A stretch of DNA of 26,181 bases from Candidatus Alcyoniella australis. Lineage in GTDB: Bacteria > Lernaellota > Lernaellaia > JAVCCG01 > Alcyoniellaceae. Made by a program: the position numbers and the translations under genes. The notes under the pieces were generated by a model that did no database searches, was not told the origin of the DNA, and saw only the letters and a program-made list of their open reading frames with translations. The stretch spans positions 1-26,181 of the forward strand of contig JAVCCG010000039.1 in assembly GCA_030765605.1 (NCBI GenBank), given 5' to 3'. How positions within the stretch are numbered: position 1 is the first letter of the stretch; each line of letters opens with the position of its first letter. Below are positions 2,729-14,850 of the stretch, one piece after another.

Positions 2729-3735
2729 AGATCAAGGACACGTTGAAAAAGGCGTGGTCGCACTTCCCGGCCTGGTTCGTATTCATCATGGGCTGGGGGA
2801 TCATCAACTACGAGATGGCGCGGATCAGCCCGCAGATGTGGGGCGATCACAACCGCAACCTGTTCGCGCTGACCGTGATCTTCCCGATGTTCTGGTTCCT
2901 GAGCTACTACACCCTGGCGATCCGGCGCGAGGGCGGAGCCAAGCAGCGCCGCGACCTGGTGCTGGTCTGGATGCTGGGGATCGGCGCGCCGCTGCTGACC
3001 TGGCTGATTCCGACTTACGTGTACCAGCGCAAAGGCTACCTCTCGGGCGCCGAGATCGTGCAGGTCTACGAGTACAGCCAGTTCATGTGGGTCGCGGTGC
3101 TCGCGCTGCACGCCCTGCGCACGCGCAGCTTCCAACGCATGCTGACCTTCTTTGCCGTGTGCTTTGTCTACGGCCTGCTGCTGGAGAACATGGGGATCAT
3201 CCTAGGTTACTTCAGCGAGCATCACTACACGATCTACATCTGGCTGGGCGATGTTAAGCTGCCCGCGCCCCTGTCCACGCAGTTCGGCTGGTGCATCATG
3301 TTCTACGTGGCGCTGCACCTGGCCGAGGGCTTCGGCAAGTCGTTCCCCGCGCTTGATCGGCGGCCCTGGGCCCTGGCGCTGCTGACCTCGATAATCGCCG
3401 TGACCCTGGACATGCAGATCGACCCGATGGCCAGCCTCTCGGGCGTCTGGTGGCAGTGGGATTCGCGCCTGGTGCCCGGGTTCCTGGGGGTGCCGTGGCT
3501 GAACTTCGTCGCCTGGTTCTCCGCTTTCCTGCCGCTGAGCTTCGCCTACTTCTTCTACCGTAGATCAGGGCTGAGCGAGGGGCGGCAGAACCTGCGAATC
3601 TTGGCGATTGTGCCCTGGATGCCCATCGCCTGCATGGCGGTCGGCGGAGTGCTGATGGTCGTCGTGGACCGCGGATTCAACGGCCCGACCTTTGCCATTT
3701 TCAACGAGTTCCTGCACAAGCTGATGCCCTATTAG
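2725..3735 (+). CDS. polytopic membrane protein, CruF/DUF422-like
   Basis: The protein has 336 residues and about eight or nine hydrophobic segments, for example FPAWFVFIMGWGIINYEMA near 14-32. LLLENMGIILGYF, then a segment ending QFGWCIMFYVALHLAEGF, then LDMQIDPMASLSGVWWQWD resemble the E-x-x-G, the W-x-x-M/F-Y and the D-x-x-x-D-P-x-x-x-x-G-x-W-x-W signatures of the carotenoid biosynthesis (CruF, DUF422) membrane family. The match is by eye and distant, and no carotenoid gene is nearby. The ATG overlaps the ATP-grasp TGA by 4 bp, so the two are translationally coupled. It could hydrate or bind an isoprenoid or lipid, or export the product of the two preceding enzymes. Confidence 0.65.
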   Translation: MKIKDTLKKAWSHFPAWFVFIMGWGIINYEMARISPQMWGDHNRNLFALTVIFPMFWFLSYYTLAIRREGGAKQRRDLVLVWMLGIGAPLLTWLIPTYVYQRKGYLSGAEIVQVYEYSQFMWVAVLALHALRTRSFQRMLTFFAVCFVYGLLLENMGIILGYFSEHHYTIYIWLGDVKLPAPLSTQFGWCIMFYVALHLAEGFGKSFPALDRRPWALALLTSIIAVTLDMQIDPMASLSGVWWQWDSRLVPGFLGVPWLNFVAWFSAFLPLSFAYFFYRRSGLSEGRQNLRILAIVPWMPIACMAVGGVLMVVVDRGFNGPTFAIFNEFLHKLMPY

Positions 3736-3740
3736 GGAAA

Positions 3741-3824
3741 CGGCTTAGAGGTGCGGCAAAACTCGCGCAGGACGATGGTCTTTGCTCAACGACCTTCTCC
3801 TCGTAGAGACATTGAGGGAGAAGG
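3741..3824 (+). repeat. intergenic repeat copy 1
   Basis: The box AAAACTCGCG is at 3758-3767. A hairpin GGTC/GACC follows at 3777-3794, then a third inverted repeat CCTTCTCC (3793-3800) with GGAGAAGG (3817-3824). The first hairpin is poorly preserved in this copy. Confidence 0.75.
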
Positions 3825-3827
3825 GGT

Positions 3828-3849
3828 AAAGATCGTTAAAACGATCTTT
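3828..3849. terminator. probable bidirectional terminator of the GNAT operon
   Basis: AAAGATCGT, loop TAAA, then ACGATCTTT form a perfect 9-bp stem flanked by A on the left and T on the right. It lies 93 bp after the stop of the membrane protein gene, just past repeat copy 1. The T tract is short, so termination strength is uncertain. Confidence 0.5.
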
Positions 3850-3867
3850 GTGTGTGGGCTCGCCGGG

Positions 3868-3998
3868 GCGGCTTGGAGCCGCAGCAAGGCTCGCATATTT
3901 CCCTGGTCATTTTGCGTAGACCCATGCCGCGACGCGGAGAGCATCGTCGAGCCACATGCAGGTCACGTACGCGAGTTTTGCCCCGGCTCGAAGCCGGG
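3868..3998. repeat. tail-to-tail pair of repeat copies 2 (+) and 3 (-)
   Basis: Copy 2 starts with the hairpin GCGGCT-TGG-AGCCGC (3868-3882), a diverged box (AGCAAGGCTCGC) and a GGTC/GACC hairpin. Copy 3 on the - strand has hairpin CCCGGCT/AGCCGGG (3982-3998) and a perfect box at 3970-3979. They meet at a shared near-palindrome CCGCGACGCGG (about 3927-3937). This arrangement is like REP pairs in BIMEs. Confidence 0.75.
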
Positions 3999-4131
3999 CG
4001 ACAGCTCGTTCAGCGCGTTCTCAAAGAAGTGTTGTTCATCGAAACAAAATGTTCCGCACGATTATCGGTCATAGATCGTGGCCTGGCACATGGCACCGCA
4101 AACTTCGCGCATCAGTCCACCCTCGGATGAT

Positions 4132-4261
4132 CCGGCTTGGAGCCGGCCCGAAACTCGCGCACCGCGATTGTTTTTAAACATTGATCAATCCCGCGTCGCG
4201 GAGAGGGTCGTTGGATTACAACCAGCGTACTACGCGAGTTTTGTGGCACCTCAAAGGTGCC
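4132..4261. repeat. tail-to-tail pair of repeat copies 5 (+) and 6 (-)
   Basis: Copy 5 has the hairpin CCGGCT-TGG-AGCCGG, a diverged box GAAACTCGCG and a GATTG/CAATC stem. Copy 6 on the - strand has the perfect stem GGCACCT/AGGTGCC (4245-4261), the box at 4233-4242 and a GGTTGT/ACGACC stem. The two share CCGCGTCGCGG at about 4191-4201, reproducing the layout of copies 2 and 3. Confidence 0.8.
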
Positions 4262-4331
4262 GACGCGGGGTAGGTCGTGGCATTAGGACCAGCGTACTAC
4301 GCGAGTTTTGCGGGCACCTCCAAGGTGCCGC
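4262..4331 (-). repeat. intergenic repeat copy 7
   Basis: Read on the - strand, the hairpin GGCACCT/AGGTGCC occupies 4313-4329. The box is at 4300-4309, and a GGTC/GACC stem and CCGCGTCG follow. It is tandem with copy 6 (67 bp between boxes) and abuts the stop codon of the Deg protease gene. Confidence 0.8.
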
Positions 4332-5795
4332 CTATTTGCGTAGGGTCACGCGTAGGGCCTGGCCGTTGCGGTCGATGACGAACAGCAGCTTTTCACCGCG
4401 CCGTGCGCGGTCGATGATCGCCTTGAGCGAGGCCACGTCCATCACCTTGATGCGGTCCACGGCGTGGATCAAATCGCCGACCTGCACTCCGGAGCGCTGG
4501 GCCACGGAGCCGGGCTCGATCCTCACCACCAACGCCCCGGCGCCCTGGCGCGGGTTGTAGCGCTTGACAGTGTCGGGCGTCAGGTCGGAGACGGTCAGGC
4601 CCCAGGGGATCTCAACCTGCTCGGCCACCTGAAAGCCCTCGGGCGGCATCTCGGCGATCAATACATTGAGCGTTCGTTCTTGGCCGTTGCGCGCGACCAC
4701 CACGTCGACCTTATCGCCCACCGGGGTTTGGGCCACCAACAGGGGCAACTGGGCGATGCGCGCCAGGCGCTTGCCGTCGAATTCGATCAGCACGTCGCCG
4801 GGCTTGATCCCGGCGCGTTCGGCCGGGCCGCCGGGCACGACTTTTTGCACCAGCACCGCGCCGATCGGCACCTGCTCTTCCTGCGCCTGCTTTCTGGTCA
4901 GCGGACTGAACTCCACCCCGAGCCAACCGCGCACCACGCGGCCGGTCGTGCGTAGCTGGCCGATGATCTCGCGCACCATGTTGATCGGAATGGCGAAGCC
5001 CAGGTTCTGGCCACCAGAGATAATCAGCGTGTTCACGCCCACGGCCTGACCGCGAATGTTGATCAAGGGGCCGCCGGAGTTGCCCGGGTTGATCGAGGCG
5101 TCGGTCTGAATGAAGTCGTCGTAGGGACCGGCGCCGATCATCCGGCCTTTGGCCGAGACGATGCCCGCGGTGACCGTGTAGTCCAGGCCCAGCGGGTTGC
5201 CGATGGCGATCACCCACTCGCCGACCTTAAGCGCGTCGCTGTCCCCGAGTTTGATCGCGGGCAGTGGTCGCTCGCTTTGGACTTTGATCAATGCCAGATC
5301 GCTCTTGGCGTCCGAGCCGATCAGCTCGGCCTCGAGCTCAGTGCCGTCGAGCAGCTTGACGTTGATCGTCTGCGCCGAGTCGACCACGTGGTTGTTGGTC
5401 ACGATGTAGCCCTCGGGGTCGATAATGAACCCCGAGCCCAGGCCGCGGCTGCGCCAATCGCGGTCCGGCGGCACCAGGTCGCGGAAAAAATCCCAGAACG
5501 GATCGTTGGGTGCAAACGGCGCGTTGGAGTTCGGCGCGGCAATTGTTTTAACCACGTCGATGAAGACCACGGTGGGCTTGAGCTCTTCGGCCAGGTCGAC
5601 GAAGGTGCGGTTGGCAGCCTCGAGGTTGACCTCAGGCGGCAGCGGCGCGGCCGTGCCATCGGGAAGCTCGTGCGCGGACTGCGCGTGAGCCTGACGGTGG
5701 TCGCTCCAGGCCAACGAGGTCATGGCCAGCATCAGCAGTGCGATTACGATCGGAAGAAACAAACCGGCGAACCCGGTCCTGCGTCCGTTGCGCAT
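4332..5795 (-). CDS. degP: periplasmic Do/DegP-type serine protease with two PDZ domains
   Basis: The protein has 487 residues, typical for DegP/DegQ. A signal peptide or anchor covers about residues 9-38, ending AHAQS. The trypsin-like domain shows His136 in NNHVVD, Asp166 in SDAKSDLALI and Ser240 in NPGNSGGPLIN, so the triad is complete. PDZ1 starts near WLGVEF (about 290) and PDZ2 near residue 390 (GALVVRIEPGSVAQRSGV). It degrades or refolds misfolded envelope proteins. ATG follows GGAGGAG. It is the last gene of the dnaK cluster, 37 bp after the DUF1844 gene, linking cytosolic and envelope quality control. DegP and DegQ cannot be told apart by eye, so the symbol is approximate. Confidence 0.93.
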   Translation of the reverse strand: MRNGRRTGFAGLFLPIVIALLMLAMTSLAWSDHRQAHAQSAHELPDGTAAPLPPEVNLEAANRTFVDLAEELKPTVVFIDVVKTIAAPNSNAPFAPNDPFWDFFRDLVPPDRDWRSRGLGSGFIIDPEGYIVTNNHVVDSAQTINVKLLDGTELEAELIGSDAKSDLALIKVQSERPLPAIKLGDSDALKVGEWVIAIGNPLGLDYTVTAGIVSAKGRMIGAGPYDDFIQTDASINPGNSGGPLINIRGQAVGVNTLIISGGQNLGFAIPINMVREIIGQLRTTGRVVRGWLGVEFSPLTRKQAQEEQVPIGAVLVQKVVPGGPAERAGIKPGDVLIEFDGKRLARIAQLPLLVAQTPVGDKVDVVVARNGQERTLNVLIAEMPPEGFQVAEQVEIPWGLTVSDLTPDTVKRYNPRQGAGALVVRIEPGSVAQRSGVQVGDLIHAVDRIKVMDVASLKAIIDRARRGEKLLFVIDRNGQALRVTLRK

Positions 5796-5832
5796 CTTCT
5801 CCTCCGGCCGGCCGCAGGCGTTCAGGGCCGAC

Positions 5833-6384
5833 TTAGTTGGGCTCCGGGTCCTGCCCCTTTGGCTGCTGTTTGAGCAGCTCGACGTAGCGCATGCGCAGTT
5901 GGTACAGCGCGTTGGTCATCACGTTCTGCTCGCTGGGGTCCAGGTTGCCGCGGGTCTTCTCTTCGAGCATGCCCAGGATGTCGATGGTCTGCTTGGCCAT
6001 CGGCAGATTGGCCTGCGGCTGATTGGTGAACGGGTCGGGAACGTCCCCCAGATGCACCATGGTCGAGGTCGAAAGGCTGAGCACGAAGTTGATGAAGTTG
6101 ATCTCGGGTAGCGGTCGGGAATCGTGTTCTTCCTGGTCCGGCTGTGCGGCCTGCTGCTCGGCCTCGGGCTCCGGTGCAGGCTCTGCTGCGACCTCGGGCT
6201 CTGCGGCCTCGGGCTTGGTCTTGACCTCGCCGTCGGGCTCCTGGGTAAAGCGGCGACGGTCTTTGACGGTAAAGCCCTGCTCCGCTTTCTGTTCTTCCTG
6301 CTCGGCCTGCTCGGCCTGCTCGGCCTGCTCGGCCTTGTCGGCCTTGTCGGCCTTGTCGGCCTTGTCGCTTTTATCGTTCATCAC
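5833..6384 (-). CDS. DUF1844 family protein with low-complexity charged N-terminus
   Basis: The protein has 183 residues. The C-terminal half (about 95-177) shows INFINFVLSLSTSTMVHLGD, then PMAKQTIDILGMLEEKTRGN and a helix NALYQLRMRYVEL, matching the DUF1844 family pattern. The N-terminus is a run of D-K-A and E-Q-A triplets followed by Pro/Glu-rich sequence, probably disordered. Two start ATGs lie in tandem after AGGGAG. It sits between grpE and the Deg protease in one transcription direction, so a role linked to protein quality control is possible but unproven. The family function is unknown. Confidence 0.85.
   Translation of the reverse strand: MMNDKSDKADKADKADKAEQAEQAEQAEQEEQKAEQGFTVKDRRRFTQEPDGEVKTKPEAAEPEVAAEPAPEPEAEQQAAQPDQEEHDSRPLPEINFINFVLSLSTSTMVHLGDVPDPFTNQPQANLPMAKQTIDILGMLEEKTRGNLDPSEQNVMTNALYQLRMRYVELLKQQPKGQDPEPN
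6301..6369 (-). repeat. 9-bp in-frame tandem repeat in the DUF1844 gene
   Basis: About seven or eight units of a 9-bp sequence (CTCGGCCTG, changing to GTCGGCCTT) encode the E-Q-A and D-K-A triplets. The period is a multiple of three, so copy-number change would alter only linker length. Confidence 0.8.
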
Positions 6385-6408
6385 GTTCTCCCTATGACAA
6401 CCCGTAGG

Positions 6409-7005
6409 CTAATTCGGTTCGCCCGTTTCCTGATTTTGATCGTCCTGCTCGGGCGGCTGCTTGGCCACGATCACGCGCGCGGGCCTGACCAGCCTGCCAT
6501 GCAAAGTGTACCCCGGCTCGCAGCACTCGACGATATGCTCCGGCTCGACGCCGGGCATCGGCACTGCCGAGAAGACCTCATGCACGTTGGGATCCAGCTT
6601 ACCCTGGGTCGGGATCTCCTCGAGCCCCTGGGCATGCAGGATCGTGAACGTCTGGCGCTGCAGCGTGCGCAGGCCCTCGGCCCACGGCTCCTCTATCCCG
6701 TCCACGCTGTGCACTGCGCGGTCCAGGCCGTCGAGCACCGGCATTAGGGCTTTGAGCAGCTCGGCCCGCGCCCAGTCGGCGGTCTGCGCCTTCTCGCGTT
6801 CGCTGCGCTTGCGGAAGTTGTCGAACTCCGCGGCCAGCCGCTGCAGCCGGTCGGTCAGCTCGTCGATCCGCGCCTGCGGATCAAGCGGCTGCTCCTGGGC
6901 CACGCTCTGCTCGGGCTGCTGCTCCTCGGGCTCGATCGCGACCTGTTCCGTAGCGTCCTTGACCTCTATTTTTCGTTTCTTTTTATCTTTACCTTTGTCG
7001 CTCAT
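6409..7005 (-). CDS. grpE: GrpE nucleotide exchange factor
   Basis: The protein has 198 residues. A basic then acidic disordered N-terminus (to about 45) leads to a long coiled-coil helix ([20 protein letters not shown], about 49-68). The beta-wing domain contains [14 protein letters not shown] and ends with [15 protein letters not shown], the GrpE signature. It releases ADP from DnaK. Its ATG overlaps the stop of the J-protein (ATGA), so the two are translationally coupled, and both belong to the dnaK cluster. Confidence 0.96.
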
Positions 7006-7997
7006 CCGATACCTCTGTAAAGCTCGTCGCGCGGTGATTGCGGGTTGTCGCTGCTGAACTTCTCGATCAGCTCGGCGCTGTCCTTGTCGACCTGCTTGGG
7101 GACCTCGACGGCAATCACGATTATCAGATCGCCGGGCTTGCCCTTGGGCGGCTTGACCCCCTTGCCGCGCAGGCGCAGCTTGCTGCCCGAACTGGTGCCC
7201 GGCGGGATCGTAACCGTGGACATTTTATCCAGGGTCGGGACCTTGATCTTGGCGCCGAGCACCGCCTCTTGGATGCTGATCGGCACGTCGAGCAGCAGGT
7301 CGTTGCCCTCGCGCTTGAAGTATTTGTGCGGCTCGACCTGAAGCTTGATCAGCAGGTCGCCCGCAGCCCCGCCGTAGGGGCTGGGCTGCCCTTTGCCGCG
7401 CAGGCGGATCGTTTGGCCGTCGCGTACTCCGGCGGGAATCTGCACGGTCAGCCGGTTTGAGCTGCCGTCCGGTTGTTGCAGTTCGATCTGCGTGCTCATA
7501 CCGCGTAGGGCGTCGATGAAGCCCACTGGCATCTGGTGCTGCAAATCAGCGCCGCGCGGCGGCGGTCCGCTGCGCCGCCGCTGTCCGCGCGGTCCGGCGT
7601 GCGGTCTGCCCGCTGCGTGTGCGCCGCCGAACATCTGCGAGATCACATCTTCAAAGCCCCCGCCGCCGCGGGGCCCACCGCGGCCGCCGAAGTGGACCTC
7701 GCCGAACCCGCCCAGGTCGCGCAGCACGTCGCTGAAGTCGAAACCCGAGAAGTCGAAGCCCTCGCCCTGAGGTCCGCCGGTATGGCCGAAGCGGTCGTAG
7801 CGCTTGCGGTTCTCGGGGTTGGAGAGCACGGCGTAGGCCTCGCTGATCTGCTTGAATTTCTCCTCGGCCTCGGGATTGTCCTTGTTGCGGTCGGGGTGGT
7901 ATTTCAACGCCAGCTTACGATAGGCCTTCTTCAGCTCGTCGGCGGAGACGTTGCGCTCCACTCCGAGAATTTTATAGAAGTCCTGTTTCGCTGCCAT
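7002..7997 (-). CDS. class II (CbpA-type) J-domain co-chaperone
   Basis: The protein has 331 residues. The J domain (about 5-70) has the catalytic HPD in [11 protein letters not shown] Gly/Phe-rich region follows (about 73-135). The DnaJ C-terminal domain runs about 150-325 ([16 protein letters not shown] and later [12 protein letters not shown]). There are no CxxCxGxG repeats, so this is the zinc-finger-less type that stimulates DnaK ATPase, not classical DnaJ. ATG follows AAAGGAA. It lies 98 bp after dnaK, with a hairpin between, and overlaps grpE by 4 bp. Confidence 0.93.
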
Positions 7998-8027
7998 CGC
8001 GTTCCTTTCTGTTTCCCAATCTATATT

Positions 8028-8064
8028 AAACGAGCGACGCAGGTTGTGCCCACGCCGCTCGCTT
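8028..8064 (-). terminator. hairpin between dnaK and the J-protein gene
   Basis: The arms CGAGCG (8031-8036) and CGCTCG (8056-8061), flanked by A and T, form a terminator-like stem. On the - strand the right arm is followed by TTTAATAT. It may attenuate read-through from dnaK and so set a higher DnaK level than that of its co-chaperones. Inner pairing is imperfect. Confidence 0.4.
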
Positions 8065-8095
8065 TATGGACTATTCGTCACGCTCGGTCGGGGCC

Positions 8096-10051
8096 CTAGT
8101 TGTCCTCGGTGAACTCGGCGTCGATCACGTCGTCGTCCGCTTCGGATCCAGCGCCCGCGTCGGACCCGGCGCCCGCGTCGGTCTGCGGTCCCGGCCCGGC
8201 GCTGCCGCCGGCGAATCCGCCCGGGCCCGCATCGGCCGCTGCGGCCTGTGCTCCGGCCTTTTGGTACATCGCCTCGGCGATTTTATGGCTGGCCTGGGTC
8301 AGGGTCTGCATCGCGGATTGCATCTGCTCGGTGTCGCCGGACTCCAGCGCCTCTTTGGACTGCGTAAGCGCGGTCTCGATGTTGCCGATGTCCTCGGCCT
8401 CGAGGCTCTCGCGGTTCTCGTTGAGCGTCTTCTCGGTGGTGTAGACCAAGGCGTCGAGCTGGTTGCGAGCCTCGACCTGGGCGCGCTTGGCCTCGTCGTC
8501 CTTGGACGAGCTCTGGGCGTCTTTGACCATGCCGTCGACCTCGTCCTTGGACAGGCCCGAGCTGGCGGTGATCGTAATCTTCTGCTCCTTGCCCGTGGCG
8601 CGGTCCTTGGCCGAGACCGAGACGATGCCGTTGGCGTCGATGTCGAATGTGACCTCGATCTGCGGTACGCCGCGCGGCGCCGCCGGGATGCCCACCAACT
8701 GGAAACGGCCCAGTGTGCGGTTGTCGGTCGCCATGGCGCGCTCGCCCTGCAGCACGTGGATCTCGACCGAGGTTTGGCTGTCGGCCGCGGTGCTGAAGAC
8801 CTCGGATTTCTTGACCGGGATCGTGGTGTTGCGTTCGATTAGCTGGGTCAACACGCCGCCGAGGGTCTCGATGCCCAGGCTCAGCGGGGTCACGTCGAGC
8901 AACAGCACGTCGGTCACGTCGCCGGAGAGCACTCCGCCCTGAATCGCGGCGCCCACGGCCACGACCTCGTCGGGATTGACGCCCTTGTGCGGCTTCTTGC
9001 CGAACAGCTCCTCGACCATCTGCTGGACTTTGGGGATGCGCGTGCTGCCGCCCACGAGCACGACCTCGTCGATCTCACCCGGCTGCATCTTGGCATCGGC
9101 CATCGCCTTGCGGCACGGGTCGAGTGTCTTCTCCAGCACGTCGGCTACCAGCGCCTCGAATTTGGCGCGGGTCAGGTTGAGCACCAGATGCTTGGGGCCC
9201 GCGGCGTCGGCTGTAACGAACGGCAGGTTGATCTCGGTCTCCTTGGCGGTGCTCAGCTCGATCTTGGCCTTCTCGGCCGCCTCTTTGAGCCGCTGCAGCG
9301 CCATCTTGTCGGCGCCCAGGGCGATCCCCTGGTCTTTCTTGAACTCATTGATCAGCCAATCGATGATTCGTTGGTCGATGTTGTCGCCGCCCAGATGGGT
9401 ATCGCCGTTGGTCGACTTGACCTCCACGACCTTGTCGCCCACCTCGAGAATCGAGATATCGAAGGTGCCGCCGCCGAAGTCGAAGACCGCGATCTTTTCC
9501 TCGGTCTTCTTGTCCAGGCCGTAGCTCAGGGCCGCGGCCGTCGGCTCGTTGATGATTCGGCGCACGTTGAGCCCGGCGATCTGACCCGCGTCCTTGGTCG
9601 CCTGGCGCTGGCTGTCGTTGAAATACGCCGGCACGGTGATTACCGCGTCGGTGACGGTCGCGCCCAGGTAGTCCTCAGCCGATTTCTTGAGCTTCTGCAA
9701 GATCATCGCCGAGATCTCGGGCGGCGAAAACTGTTTGCCCTTGATCTCGATCCGCGCGTCTCCGGCAGGACCGGCAACCACCTTGTAAGGCACGATTGCG
9801 ATCTCTTCGGGAACCTCGTTGAGGCGCCGTCCCATGAAACGCTTGATCGAATAGACCGTATTTTCGGGGTTACTCACGGCCTGACGCTTGGCCACCTGGC
9901 CGACCAGATGGTCGCCGTCCTTGGTAAACGCCACCACCGACGGGGTAGTTCGGCCACCCTCCTCGTTGGTGATTACCTTGGACTCTCCACCCTCCATTAC
10001 CGCGACCACGCTGTTGGTGGTACCCAGGTCGATGCCGATTATCTTACCCAT
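8096..10051 (-). CDS. dnaK: Hsp70 chaperone DnaK
   Basis: The protein has 651 residues, the usual DnaK length. The N-terminal ATPase domain opens with [20 protein letters not shown] and contains [32 protein letters not shown] and [15 protein letters not shown]. The substrate-binding domain starts near [14 protein letters not shown] (about 392). The helical lid is followed by a Gly/Ala/Asp-rich tail ending [12 protein letters not shown], typical of bacterial DnaK. ATG follows AAGGAG. It leads a - strand cluster with its J-protein, GrpE, DUF1844 and Deg partners. No CIRCE element was found upstream. Confidence 0.98.
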
Positions 10052-10082
10052 TGCCTAAATCTCCTTTGCTATGCAACTTCAA

Positions 10083-10098
10083 GGACTTATAAAAGTCC
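10083..10098. other. hairpin in the dnaK leader
   Basis: GGACTT, loop ATAA, AAGTCC form a perfect 6-bp stem lying 32 bp upstream of the dnaK ATG, inside the predicted 5' untranslated region. It could be a thermosensitive or operator-like element. It does not match CIRCE or another named motif. Confidence 0.4.
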
Positions 10099-10126
10099 GT
10101 TATTTTTAGCCTCATGTTTCATTTGG

Positions 10127-10155
10127 AACTTAACCACCCGATGGAGTCCTGTCAA
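10127..10155 (-). promoter_or_regulatory. predicted dnaK promoter
   Basis: On the - strand TTGACA (10155-10150), a 17-bp spacer and TAAGTT (10132-10127) precede a leader of about 70 nt. The -35 is perfect and the -10 moderate. No sigma-32-like CCCCAT box is seen. Confidence 0.5.
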
Positions 10156-10172
10156 CTGCAAGACCTCGATAA

Positions 10173-10201
10173 TTGACCGAAATTCAAGCTCGCCCTATAC
10201 T
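10173..10201 (+). promoter_or_regulatory. predicted promoter for the amidohydrolase gene, leaderless layout
   Basis: TTGACC at 10173-10178, a 17-bp spacer and TATACT at 10196-10201. Only 7 nt separate the -10 box from the ATG at 10209, so transcription should begin at or next to the start codon. No Shine-Dalgarno sequence is present. The in-frame TTG at 10173 is the -35 box itself and so is unlikely to be a start. Confidence 0.65.
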
Positions 10202-10208
10202 CTACAAC

Positions 10209-11210
10209 ATGTTGTTTTCACGCGGTTCGCTATTGGCATTGGTTGCGCTGCTGCCGGCCGTTGCCGCGCTGTTGTTGTGCGGATGTCGCGCAAGCGAGCA
10301 GCAGCCCAGCGACCTGCGCTACGCCGGGCCGATTGTCGACACCCACGATCACCTGCAAGGGCTTGAATTTTTGCAGGATACCTTCAATGCCATGGATGCG
10401 CACCAGATCCGCAGCATCTGGCTGATGGGCCGCGGCGAGTCGCGCTATCGCAACAGCGACACGCCCGGATTGGCCACCCTTGAGGGCAACAACGATCTGA
10501 TCCTCTCATTGGCGCGCAAATACCCCGAGCGCATCAAGGCTTTTCCGCGCATCAGACCCCTGAAACACGAGAATCCCAATGCTGCGGTCGACGAGCTGAT
10601 CGAGCGCGGCGCAGCAGGAATTAAACTCCATTTCGGCTCCAAACCACCGTCGAGCAGCAGGCCCAAGGCAGCTGACGAGCCATACATGGCGCTTTATAAA
10701 CACTGTGAGATCAACGACATACTATTGATGATCCACCTGGAGGAGCAGGCCCAGCCCGGTCAGATCGAGGCGATTGCCGCGGCCTGTCCCAACCTGCGGC
10801 TGATCATCTGCCATCTGGGACATGCGCCGCAGAACCCGGAACTATGGCACGGCCTGCTCGCGCGCCATCCCAATCTTTACACGGACTTCAGCTTCGGCTT
10901 TGAAAAGACCTACGCGGATCGCGCGGTCAAGCTTAGCCAGCACGCCGCGCGCTGGCGCGAGGTGGTCTTGGCCCACCCCGATCAGTTCCTTTATGGGACC
11001 GACATGGTGATCGGCCCGCGGGGCGTGCGATCGCGCCAATGGATCGAGGGGCGGTTCCGCGCCTATCGCAACTTATTGGAACTCAGTAAGTTTCACGATA
11101 CGCTGGTCAGCGAGAAGCGCACCTACGAGCTGGACCTGGTCGGATTGAACCTGCCCCAGGACGTGCTGCGCAAGATCTATTGGGATAATCCGCACAAACT
11201 TATCCCCTAG
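10209..11210 (+). CDS. amidohydrolase-2-like metal-dependent hydrolase, lipoprotein
   Basis: From ATG 10209 the protein has 333 residues. A hydrophobic signal segment (6-23) ends in LCGC, with Cys26 as likely lipidation site. The metal-ligand motif His46-x-His48 lies in VDTHDHLQG. GIKLHFG, LLMIHLEE, LIICHLGHAP and FLYGTDMV then supply the later His and Asp positions expected of a TIM-barrel amidohydrolase (PF04909-like). It probably hydrolyses or decarboxylates a small substrate in the envelope; the substrate is unknown. It is divergent from dnaK and convergent with the J-fusion gene. The frame extends upstream to TTG 10173, but the promoter position argues against that start. Confidence 0.85.
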   Translation: MLFSRGSLLALVALLPAVAALLLCGCRASEQQPSDLRYAGPIVDTHDHLQGLEFLQDTFNAMDAHQIRSIWLMGRGESRYRNSDTPGLATLEGNNDLILSLARKYPERIKAFPRIRPLKHENPNAAVDELIERGAAGIKLHFGSKPPSSSRPKAADEPYMALYKHCEINDILLMIHLEEQAQPGQIEAIAAACPNLRLIICHLGHAPQNPELWHGLLARHPNLYTDFSFGFEKTYADRAVKLSQHAARWREVVLAHPDQFLYGTDMVIGPRGVRSRQWIEGRFRAYRNLLELSKFHDTLVSEKRTYELDLVGLNLPQDVLRKIYWDNPHKLIP

Positions 11211-11211
11211 G

Positions 11212-11456
11212 GCACCTTTGAGGTACCTGCAAAACTCGCGAACGGACCATAATCATTGCCCAACGATGATATCCGCGACGGAAGATTGTGGAGGTTTGCC
11301 TAGGGTACGTGCAAAACTCGCGAGCGGACCATAATCATTGTCCAACGATGATATCCGCGACGGAAGATTGTGGAGATTTGCCTGGGGTGCCTGAAAACTC
11401 GCATAGTTCGCTGGTCGTAATCCAACGACCCTCTCCGCGACGAAAGATTGGGGAGG
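11212..11456 (+). repeat. tandem array of three intergenic repeat units
   Basis: Boxes lie at 11231-11240, 11313-11322 and 11394-11403 (last base changed), giving periods of 82 and 81 bp. Units 1 and 2 are almost identical. Unit 3 instead resembles copies 6 and 7, with TAGTNCGCTGGT and a GGTCGT/ACGACC stem. Unit 1 begins with the hairpin GGCACCT/AGGTACC; later units have largely lost it. Each unit contains CCGCGACG followed by GAAGATTG or AAAGATTG. The array fills the whole gap between convergent genes. Confidence 0.85.
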
Positions 11457-13841
11457 TTACCCCTCTGAATCGTCGGTCGGCGACTGCGGCATCTGGAAAT
11501 CCTCGGGCTTCCAATAATCGAGCATCTCCATCTCGCGGCGCGCCTCGAGGCTGCGCGGGTTGCGATCAAGCGCCTGCGCCATCATCTGGGCCGCGGCCTG
11601 GAGCTTGCCCTGGACCTTGAGCATCTTGCCCAGGAACAGGCAGGTCAACTCCGACTTGGGGTTCAGATCGTTGGCCAACGACAGCTCCTGCTTGGCCCGC
11701 TTGACCCGCTCTTTCTCCTCGAGACCGCGGTCGTTGAACAACGCCCATCCGAGGTAGGCGTGATACTCGGCCTCGTTGGGGAACAGCTCCAACGCCTTGC
11801 CCAGGGCCTCGATCGCCATCCGGAATTCGCCGAGCTTGAGCGCCTCGATCGCGCGTTTGAACGAGCTCTCGGCGACCAGGGTGGCCGCCTGCTTGCGTTT
11901 GCTCTCCTGGAGCCGCGCGATCAGCTCGCGGTCGTACTGATCGCGTTGCTTAGGATCGCCCAGCACCAGGAACGCCGCCTCGATGCGCTGGGTAATCGCC
12001 TCGATCTTTTCGATCAACTCCGGTTCGGTGATCTTGCCCAGGCGCTTGACGCTGAAGCGGCGCCGCATGCGGCTGTAGCTGCGTTCGATCCTCTCCAGCG
12101 TGTCGTTCTGACTTAGGCCGAGCAGTTCGTAATGGTTGACGTGCTCCAGAGTGAGGAACTTGGCGGTAATCGTCTTGGACAGCGTCTGAGCCTCGTCCGT
12201 GCGCGCTGCGCCCTTGGGCTCATCCGACGGGGGTTTAATCTCGGTCGCTTCGGCCGGGCCGACGAACCGCTCGTCAGCCGGCGGCTGCTGGTCCGCGGGC
12301 TGATCAATATCATGCTGGGCCTTGGCGATCCGTTCGCGAAGCTGCGGGTCCTGTTCCGGCGGCGCGGGTCGTTGCTCGGGCTGATCGCCGTCAGCCGGCT
12401 CCTGGGCCGATCTGAACTCGATCGGCGGGTGCTGCTTGGCCTTAAGCCTGATCTTCTCGATCAACGCGGTCGACATGTCCGCGGCGGCGCTGTCGGCCAG
12501 GCCGTCGAGGCTGCTGTAGTAGGTGTTCAGCAGCGATTTCGAGGCCGCCTGCTCCAGGCGTTCGAGCTGTTCGCGTCCCTGATCATCGACCGGCTTGAGC
12601 ACGGCCAGCGAAAGCAACCAGAACATCATCTGCAGGCTGCAGGTCAGCTCCAGCGGACTGGTAAAGACGATCTGCTCGACCGTTCGCGCGCCGTCATACA
12701 ACTTGACGAACTCGCGCTCGAGTGCGCCCAGCGACAGCGACCCGATCGGTTGCAGCGCGTTCTTGTCGATCTCGAAGCGCGCCGTCTGGACTTTATCGAA
12801 CAACGCTTTGAGATTAACGGGCTGATAGCTGCGCTCAATCCCCTTGCGGATCAAGCTCGGCGTGTCCAGGGCGAACGCAGTGTAGCGCTCGCGGCTGACC
12901 TTGCCCGGCTGCTTGAAGTAGCCGCCGGAGAACCAAGAGAACAGCGACAGCGCCTTTTCCCAGGCCTGAAGCCGCAACGCCTCCATCAACTGCAGCGGAG
13001 AAATCACGCCCATCTCGATCAGCGCGCCGCCCTGGCGCGTGGCGTAGGTGTGCATGTTGGCGATGGAGATCAAGCAGTCGCGCTCGGAGATGATCCCCTC
13101 GCGTACCAGGATCTGGCCCAGGCTCTCGCTGCGCTCCTGGGAATCAACGTAGACGATGCTGCCGTTGATCCAGATGGTTTTCTTGATCTTCTTGTTGTGG
13201 TTGAAGGTCACCTGGCCGTGGAACCCGCTCAGGTAGAGGTCGGAGAACAACTCGGGCATGCCCACGTCCTCGAACAGCCCCTTATCCGGGACCTGCGGCC
13301 GTCGCTTTTCGCGCCGTCCGCCGCTGGGCAAAGGAGGATTCCACAGGACGCGGCCCTCGTCCCCGTTGGGACCGATGTGCGTGAAACCGCTCGTGGGCAG
13401 GGGTTGCCGATCTCCATCCTGGCGTGTGTGCGCGGGCCCGCAGGTGCGCAAGGCCTCGAGCAACGGGTCGCGTCCATCGAGGATTACTCGTTCGATCTCA
13501 TGGCTCAGCTCGCGCTGCTTCAGCGGACGGCGCAGCACAATGTCGGCCTGCAACGGCTTGAGCTGCTCGTCGCTGATCTCTTTGGAGGCCAGAATCGCCA
13601 GGGGCGCCACCGCTCCCACCGCGTCCTGCCGGATCATCCGGGCCAGCTCCAGCAGCTGGGGCTCACGGGGCAGAGCATCGATCAACACCAAATCCGGCGG
13701 CGCCTGGGCGAAGCGTTCCCAGGCCGACGTGTGATCGTGCGCCAAGGTCACCGAATGTCCCATTGAGCCCAGAAACTCGGCAAGCTGCTTCCCGGTCTCT
13801 TTGCCAACGGTTACCAGCAGTATCTGTCCGCGAATGCCCAC
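11457..13841 (-). CDS. degenerate receiver - DUF4388 - J-like domain - TPR fusion protein
   Basis: The protein has 794 residues and starts at GTG. The receiver-like domain (about 5-120) keeps a possible phospho-Asp55 in DLVLIDALP. The usual acidic pair is replaced (ILLVTVGKE) and the C-terminal Lys is Arg in LRRPLK, so phosphorylation is doubtful. A DUF4388/PATAN-like region (about 190-310) contains LYLSGFHGQVTFNHNKKIKK and a GQILVREGII helix. A Pro/Glu-rich linker (about 475-550) leads to a J-like domain (567-640; NHYELLGLSQ, then FLVLGDPKQRDQYDREL) that lacks HPD. TPR-like helices run about 660-770. Such fusions occur in deltaproteobacteria, where DUF4388 proteins are linked to signalling and motility. 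Role here unknown. Confidence 0.85.
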   Translation of the reverse strand: MGIRGQILLVTVGKETGKQLAEFLGSMGHSVTLAHDHTSAWERFAQAPPDLVLIDALPREPQLLELARMIRQDAVGAVAPLAILASKEISDEQLKPLQADIVLRRPLKQRELSHEIERVILDGRDPLLEALRTCGPAHTRQDGDRQPLPTSGFTHIGPNGDEGRVLWNPPLPSGGRREKRRPQVPDKGLFEDVGMPELFSDLYLSGFHGQVTFNHNKKIKKTIWINGSIVYVDSQERSESLGQILVREGIISERDCLISIANMHTYATRQGGALIEMGVISPLQLMEALRLQAWEKALSLFSWFSGGYFKQPGKVSRERYTAFALDTPSLIRKGIERSYQPVNLKALFDKVQTARFEIDKNALQPIGSLSLGALEREFVKLYDGARTVEQIVFTSPLELTCSLQMMFWLLSLAVLKPVDDQGREQLERLEQAASKSLLNTYYSSLDGLADSAAADMSTALIEKIRLKAKQHPPIEFRSAQEPADGDQPEQRPAPPEQDPQLRERIAKAQHDIDQPADQQPPADERFVGPAEATEIKPPSDEPKGAARTDEAQTLSKTITAKFLTLEHVNHYELLGLSQNDTLERIERSYSRMRRRFSVKRLGKITEPELIEKIEAITQRIEAAFLVLGDPKQRDQYDRELIARLQESKRKQAATLVAESSFKRAIEALKLGEFRMAIEALGKALELFPNEAEYHAYLGWALFNDRGLEEKERVKRAKQELSLANDLNPKSELTCLFLGKMLKVQGKLQAAAQMMAQALDRNPRSLEARREMEMLDYWKPEDFQMPQSPTDDSEG

Positions 13842-13937
13842 GTTTACACTTCCGGGTTATTGGTAAAAAACAATGTTCTAGATCGCCTTACAAAAGATGA
13901 AGATATAGAAGTACAGCCTCGTTCGTCAACGCGGGCG

Positions 13938-14096
13938 GCTATGAGGCGCAGCAAAACTCGCGGCCGTTCCCGGCTCGTAAAACAACGAGGCTTGCCGCGA
14001 CGTAAAACAAATCGTAGGCCAACACAGCTTGGAGCTGTAGCAAAACTCGCGGCCGTTCCCGGCTCGTAAAGCAACGAGGCTTGCCGCGACGCAAAA
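13938..14096 (+). repeat. tandem intergenic repeat copies 11 and 12
   Basis: Boxes AAAACTCGCG lie at 13953-13962 and 14042-14051, an 89-bp period. Both are followed by GGCCGTTCCC, a CTCGT/ACGAG hairpin and CCGCGACG, nearly identical between copies. The first hairpin of copy 12 is ACAGCT-TGG-AGCTGT (about 14024-14038). That of copy 11 is imperfect (GCGGCT/AGGCGC). Confidence 0.82.
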
Positions 14097-14130
14097 TCTT
14101 ATTTTCCGGCTGGCATACAGATATTACGCT

Positions 14131-14159
14131 TTGCCGGAGCTAGAATCTGCTATTAGTAT
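14131..14159 (+). promoter_or_regulatory. predicted promoter of the poly-Asp lipoprotein gene
   Basis: TTGCCG at 14131-14136, a 17-bp spacer and TAGTAT at 14154-14159. A strong AGGAGG lies just before the ATG at 14194, giving a leader of about 28 nt. Confidence 0.5.
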
Positions 14160-14193
14160 TGTGCAATTCAACAACTACTTCTAGGAGGAAGGT

Positions 14194-14850
14194 ATGCAGC
14201 GTTCAATTTGGATTATCTGTCTGCTGACCGTTTTGGCGATTGTCATGGGCTCAATGGCCCTGGTCGCCTGCGACAGCGGCGGCGACGACGACGACGATGA
14301 CGACGACGACGACGACGACGACGATACTGGCGATGACGATATCGAAGACGTGCCCGACGGCGTTAACGATTTCCTGGACAGCGAGGACATTCAGGCCCTG
14401 ATCGACGCGGGCATGGACGTCTACCCGGGCGATAATCCGCCCACGGTCGATGGAACCTACGCCTTGGATTCGCTGTACATCATCTACGACGACCTGGAAC
14501 AGTATAACGCGATTGGGTACTACGAGATCACCTTCTCCAACCAGACGGCTGCCGGTGAGATCGAGGTCAACTTCGCGGGCTCGGGCGACACCGGCGGCGG
14601 AGTGGGCGCATACATCTCCGGCGACAACGGCTGCTTCACGGTCTACGACGACGTGACCGGCTACACCGAGGCCGACGCTTGCAACTACGAGATGCCGATG
14701 CTCTTCTCCGGTTGCCTGGTCACCAGCGGAATCGAGGACTTCGTGCTCGGCCTGATCATGAAGGAGCGCGAGGGCGATTGCTCGTACACCATCGAGGTCG
14801 GCCACAAGCGGATCATCGAAGAGACCGACGGCATGGCTTCCGCGATCTAA
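14194..14850 (+). CDS. poly-aspartate-linker lipoprotein of unknown function
   Basis: The protein has 218 residues. A signal peptide (1-25) ends in LVAC, with Cys26 as the lipidated residue. Residues 31-44 are 14 consecutive aspartates, followed by more Asp/Glu to about 51; this is probably an extended linker lifting the domain off the membrane. The folded part (about 55-218) is rich in Tyr, Gly and acidic residues (YALDSLYIIYDDLEQY, YYEITFSN) and contains four cysteines that could form disulfides. No family was recognised. It has its own promoter, an AGGAGG ribosome site and a strong terminator, so it is probably monocistronic. Confidence 0.85.
   Translation: MQRSIWIICLLTVLAIVMGSMALVACDSGGDDDDDDDDDDDDDDTGDDDIEDVPDGVNDFLDSEDIQALIDAGMDVYPGDNPPTVDGTYALDSLYIIYDDLEQYNAIGYYEITFSNQTAAGEIEVNFAGSGDTGGGVGAYISGDNGCFTVYDDVTGYTEADACNYEMPMLFSGCLVTSGIEDFVLGLIMKEREGDCSYTIEVGHKRIIEETDGMASAI
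14284..14325 (+). repeat. in-frame GAC microsatellite encoding 14 Asp
   Basis: Fourteen aspartate codons in a row, twelve GAC and two GAT. The two GAT codons interrupt the run into blocks of four and eight GAC. Confidence 0.9.

Follow-up and report, generated by a model that had tools for sequence, protein, structure and literature searches.

The window, which is the whole stretch of DNA analysed here, is the complete 26,181-bp contig C39 of the draft genome of Candidatus Alcyoniella australis (4.29 Mb in 157 contigs, 98% complete). A profile search found 11 copies of a repeat unit of about 67 nt in it, and our gene calls, which come from a predictor written for this analysis and are approximate, place all of them in three intergenic regions (3736-4331, 11211-11456 and 13842-14193). 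Each unit is built from a first hairpin (GGCACCT-TTG-AGGTGCC, with the stem variants GGCGGCT, GGCAGCT and CCCGGCT), the box CAAAACTCGCG, a short spacer of about 10 nt, a second hairpin, typically GGTCGT...ACGACC, and a terminal CCGCGWCG. A preliminary description of this DNA had counted about 12 copies in one layout; the layout holds and the count becomes 11, while its closing box, present as CCGCG[A/T]CG, is corrected to CCGCGACG or CCGCGTCG. The box AAAACTCGCG is found exactly in 8 of the 11 units and with at most one mismatch in 10 places inside real units; an eleventh match, at 416, is unrelated to the units. Dinucleotide-shuffled versions of the window contained 2.1 matches on average, and none of 100 shuffles reached 11. 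The units and the modules that accompany them in the window are as follows.

3741-3803, plus strand: unit 1, a few nt past the TAG stop of the plus-strand gene ending at 3735; hairpin 1 imperfect; profile score 54 bits
3813-3867, plus strand: module B, a shared flank module (alignment A4) made of a G-rich tract, the hairpin AAAGATCGTTAAAACGATCTTT (3828-3849) and GTGTGTGGGCTCGCCGGG
3868-3934, plus strand: unit 2, left arm of the tail-to-tail pair 3868-3997 (130 bp)
3930-3996, minus strand: unit 3, right arm of the pair 3868-3997; CCGCGACGCGG is common to units 2 and 3
3998-4131, minus strand: module D, a long palindromic module with one arm truncated at the start of unit 4 (profile match 3995-4151)
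4133-4198, plus strand: unit 4, left arm of the tail-to-tail pair 4132-4260 (129 bp)
4194-4260, minus strand: unit 5, right arm of the pair 4132-4260; covariance model score 90.7 bits
4261-4328, minus strand: unit 6, 3 nt past the TAG stop of the minus-strand gene 4332-5795, head-to-tail with unit 5
11212-11280, plus strand: unit 7, 1 nt past the TAG stop of the plus-strand gene ending at 11210
11310-11362, plus strand: unit 8, partial, hairpin 1 decayed; tandem copy of unit 7
11386-11442, plus strand: unit 9, partial, hairpin 1 decayed
13935-14002, plus strand: unit 10, within the divergent gap 13842-14193
14025-14091, plus strand: unit 11, tandem copy of unit 10

Number and Arrangement of the Units in the Genome

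Searching the 4.29-Mb genome with a covariance model built from 96 aligned units confirmed that extra copies exist outside the window and returned at least 151 of them, a lower bound because only about 150 candidates were scored genome-wide. In the 732 kb surrounding these copies, a sample biased to loci with units, a profile search identified 254 units, complete or partial, of which 196 are essentially full-length. Half-units of 28 bp, comprising hairpin 1 and the box, also occur, including in tandem, and both half-units and single units are common. Thirty tail-to-tail pairs were found, most of them 130 bp and nearly all between 128 and 132 bp long, in which the two arms overlap in the 11-bp palindrome CCGCGWCGCGG and are usually of different sequence types. 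Contigs C98 and C119 carry head-to-tail arrays, each with six to eight units. Pairs and tandem arrays of this kind resemble BIMEs. Several contigs (C4, C5, C36, C104, C115, C116, C119 and C132) stop inside units or modules or close to them, the assembly having probably been interrupted by the repeats.

Placement of the Units Behind Genes

Coding regions make up 88.6% of the sequence, yet 244 of the 254 units lie outside predicted genes. The gaps that hold them are convergent in 38 cases, tandem in 30 and divergent in 8; the units prefer convergent gaps and avoid divergent ones. A unit lies within 7 nt of the gene in 49 of 106 gene 3' flanks, compared with 28.1 expected under uniform placement (a count as high was reached in 0 of 20,000 simulations), and in none of 46 gene 5' flanks. 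In 47 of these 49 units it is hairpin 1 that lies closest to the stop codon, and in some genes the stop codon itself falls inside hairpin 1. This positioning at stop codons was overlooked in the preliminary description, as was the larger palindromic mosaic described below. Genes followed by units end in TAG more often (32/62 versus 193/594, p = 0.0014), and TAG is rare before units away from genes (2/90). Since it is absent before most of the latter, neither TAG nor GTAG was accepted as a general target of insertion. Units often have neighbouring genes that contain long aspartate-rich (GAC/GAT) tracts, as at 14280-14340 of the window and in the flanks of L035, L045, L047, L097, L100, L103 and L105.

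Of 67 gene ends that have a unit no more than 20 nt away, none shows a recognisable intrinsic terminator within the first 150 nt, compared with 16 of 171 other gene ends, and several convergent gaps without units carry clear intrinsic terminators. The unit was rejected as an intrinsic terminator in its own right, as no T-run follows hairpin 1; judged from sequence, the absence of terminators near units would be compatible with a role of the units at transcript ends. Convergent gene 3' ends without units also fold strongly (median -22.0 versus -22.5 kcal/mol), so strong 3' structure is not special to the units.

Covariation and Mismatch Types in the Two Stems

In the 96-unit alignment both sides of a pair were changed in 107 cells, compared with 50 in shuffles, and this number fell to 37 or fewer when the partner was shifted by one to three columns. 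Under a tree-based null written for this analysis and modelled on the idea of R-scape, two pairs of stem 1 ranked top (E = 0.017 and 0.083), and about five branches carried double changes at each of three stem-1 pairs. In stem 2, which is paired in 77% of cells, no pair was significant in this test. The covariation previously claimed for both stems is therefore seen in stem 1, where the best E is about 0.02, and does not reach significance in stem 2. A candidate outer helix, TCGCG/CGCGA, was discarded, being either invariant or broken and without support.

The mismatches differ between the two stems. Stem 1 has nearly equal numbers of G·U and A·C mismatches (15 and 17, respectively), whereas G·U mismatches outnumber A·C in stem 2 (111 versus 63), although 53 of these G·U cells are of a single pair type, which may be common to related copies. 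Because G·U does not outnumber A·C in stem 1, its covariation does not point to selection on RNA, and the equality argues against selection on the RNA strand alone. Palindrome-repairing DNA processes are a possible source of the stem-1 covariation, and the stems appear to change in blocks of adjacent pairs. Compensatory changes can arise without selection from template switching during DNA replication (PMC8794818), so the step from paired change to selection on RNA or single-stranded DNA structure, which the preliminary description had taken, is unsafe and is not upheld by the stem-1 mismatches.

A Larger Palindromic Mosaic Around the Units

Once the units were masked, their flanks were found to share further modules, B, C, D and E. 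Module B combines a G-rich tract with an AT-rich hairpin that exists in at least four stem versions; in a profile rescan 481 of 487 pair cells of its hairpins were Watson-Crick and of several pair types, although both the alignment (A4) and the rescan profile were built from perfect hairpins. Module C has long stems with arms 123-137 bp apart, and module E is a strong GC-rich hairpin (GGCGGCGCGATGGC...). Module D spans about 160 bp, with 28-bp arms about 104 bp apart, and 11 of its 28 pairs have changed on both sides; modules B and D covary, as does stem 1. Mismatches in the module D stem are 9 G·U versus 7 A·C, and the copy in the window matches the D part of locus L046 at 91%. Stacks of modules B, C, D and E flanking units, with covarying stems, were noted at 3813-3867 of the window, at L046 6113-6790 and at L050 6480-7110. 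The 600-800-nt intergenic regions fold at about -0.45 kcal/mol per nt, a value computed without a shuffled control. An identical search of mononucleotide-shuffled intergenic sequence returned no long inverted repeats, and the density of plain inverted repeats failed to set the window apart from relatives. A second intergenic palindrome family, with arms of the TATTCATGA / TCATGAATA type, was observed at L038 1181-1361, L104 5968-6148, L097 6688-6961 and L034 7449-7625 and in L121 (gap after a gene).

Distribution and the Single RAYT Gene

With the covariance model the units were absent from 59 other genomes, including six of the same class; a weak match in one of them (G009, 24.9 bits) was put aside as chance. 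A pattern scan of 84,980 species genomes gave two matches, in Thermoanaerobaculia and Acidobacteria MAGs, which is about the number estimated for chance; both are weak (21.4 and 19.5 bits, respectively) and their stem-1 pairs are broken. No Rfam covariance model matched the unit. With hundreds of units in the genome, this lack of an Rfam family and the covariation of stem 1, the earlier view of a dispersed, structured, REP-like family is borne out.

The genome has a single RAYT gene (C95:13478-13834; NCBIfam NF047646, 143 bits), whose surroundings contain neither a unit nor an inverted repeat, contrary to the suggestion that a RAYT gene flanked by the box might be found. Among same-class genomes 9 of 19 RAYT loci tested are flanked by inverted repeats. 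The units carry neither GTAG nor CGTC tags, and the foot of hairpin 1 lacks a GTAG-like tetranucleotide. Apparent REPtrons, consisting of RAYT genes with flanking inverted palindromes, were observed in same-class genomes (L135 1286-1916, L129, L133 and L145), and a same-class genome (G001, L150 10881-11167) contains 65-bp tandem intergenic repeats of other sequence and similar unit size.

Discussion

REPs are 20-40 bp in size and form a single hairpin. The units described here have the habits of REPs and not their tags, size or single-hairpin form, and we consider a lineage-specific, untagged and oversized REP/BIME-like family the most probable reading (roughly 0.7). Like the GTAG REPs and BIMEs of E. 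coli, Pseudomonas and Stenotrophomonas, they are intergenic hairpin elements of high copy number near gene 3' ends, occupy convergent and tandem gaps, and form inverted dimers and clusters; the 30 inverse-orientation pairs and the arrays are likewise BIME-like. Unlike GTAG REPs, the unit has 67 nt, two hairpins, a strongly conserved internal box and no GTAG tag, the RAYT of the genome is not flanked by units, and the units are embedded in longer palindromic modules. The lack of tags and of a copy-flanked RAYT, the larger unit and its two hairpins were all counted against the REP reading.

GTAG- and CGTC-tagged REPs are located in convergent or unidirectional gaps and adjoin gene 3' ends, occur as inverted homo- or heterodimers, and occasionally nest in other palindromes; the ends of GTAG REPs can provide a TAG stop codon, and CGTC REPs have no linked transposase (Di Nocera and colleagues, PMC3733652). 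We compared alignment A2 with the description of CGTC REPs in section 6 of that work. Like dRS3, RPE-4, RPE-6 and others of this class, the present units form inverted dimers including heterodimers and lie behind genes, and the opposite strand of some of them starts with CGTC; the RAYT, the transposase class searched, is not linked to them. Unlike those REPs, they lack an 8-9-bp stem starting with A-T pairs beside the tag and a CCA tail, their tag base varies (CCGCGACG/CCGCGTCG), and their pairs overlap in the 11-bp palindrome. The family is not filed as a GTAG or a CGTC REP. In contrast to the dRS3 mosaics of Neisseria and the GTAG-15 dimers in long palindromes of Anabaena variabilis, several module families are involved here, with modules of up to about 160 bp stacked into 600-800-bp regions. 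Mitochondrial double-hairpin or repetitive hairpin elements are also dispersed and intergenic and have two adjacent hairpins (PMC2800124), but they are mitochondrial and no sequence match links them to the present units; in the sponge examples the stems are conserved and the loops vary, the opposite of what is found here.

A possible alternative, though a clearly less probable one, is that the units are functionless palindromes evolving neutrally, their arms being homogenised by template switching and gene conversion among copies. The equal G·U and A·C mismatches of stem 1, the very few mismatches of module B together with its several Watson-Crick pair types, the apparent change of stems in neighbouring-pair blocks and the compensatory changes reported for template switching (PMC8794818) speak for such a process; by itself, however, it leaves the 47:2 orientation and the placement at stop codons unexplained, unless selection removes copies elsewhere.

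That orientation speaks for another possibility, a structured RNA family: the unit or the whole mosaic would function as a small RNA or a 3'-UTR element, with its stems held in pairing by selection for the RNA fold. Stem-1 covariation, the G·U excess of stem 2 and the folding energy of the 600-800-nt regions agree with it, but stem 1 has no G·U excess and module D no clear one, stem 2 has no significant pair and only 77% pairing, about half of its G·U cells belonging to a single pair type possibly shared by related copies, no Rfam model matched, and the copy number, arrays and half-units resemble the spread of a repeat. We regard it as unlikely. An explanation of about equal standing is that the units are non-autonomous copies mobilised by the single RAYT. 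Inverted pairs and hairpins are the typical substrates of such enzymes, the units provide both, a gene for a REP-associated tyrosine transposase exists in the genome, and units are found about 3.8 to 9 kb from it on the same contig. This gene has neither a unit nor an inverted repeat at its flanks, whereas inverted repeats are present at nearly half of the same-class loci tested, and hairpin 1 lacks a GTAG-like foot, both of which make this explanation doubtful.

Still less likely, in our judgement, is that the mosaics go beyond REPs and BIMEs, as organised, lineage-specific nested palindromes in which larger stems enclose small hairpins, all of them varying in sequence without losing their pairing, and which are built and repaired by palindrome copying and serve as large 3'-UTR or chromosome-structuring elements; a search of the literature on nested palindromes or double-hairpin elements with compensatory change retrieved nothing. 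MITEs of a classical DNA transposon, with the 130-bp pair as the element, are very improbable, since the nearly uniform length and inverted arms of the 30 pairs are outweighed by the many single units and half-units, by the lack of a consistent flanking target duplication in the pair list when inspected by eye, and by the failure of a non-exhaustive search to find a parent transposon.

In E. coli, REPs block 3'-5' exonucleases, assist transcription termination or delay ribosomes at the stop codon. If the present units are indeed a REP/BIME-like family, they may spread as folded single-stranded hairpins that are copied during replication, through template switching or a trans-acting enzyme, while the inserted copies would be tolerated only behind stop codons. 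There they would be transcribed as the start of 3' UTRs, in which hairpin 1 might act in any of these ways. REPs lying no more than 15 nt from a stop codon affect translation (PMC12306157). The present units probably act as 3'-UTR structure.

In summary the family is ordinary in kind and unusual in form, a two-hairpin REP-like family set in nested palindromic mosaics, and it extends the REP-like repeats by a two-hairpin unit that has neither a tag nor a linked RAYT transposase. With hundreds of paired stems in a single genome, one can ask whether selection on RNA or the repair of DNA palindromes gives rise to compensatory change in repeats; the balance between G·U and A·C mismatches seen in stem 1 is a first test of this. 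Given the 47:2 orientation bias at stop codons, a 3'-UTR function can be tested directly.
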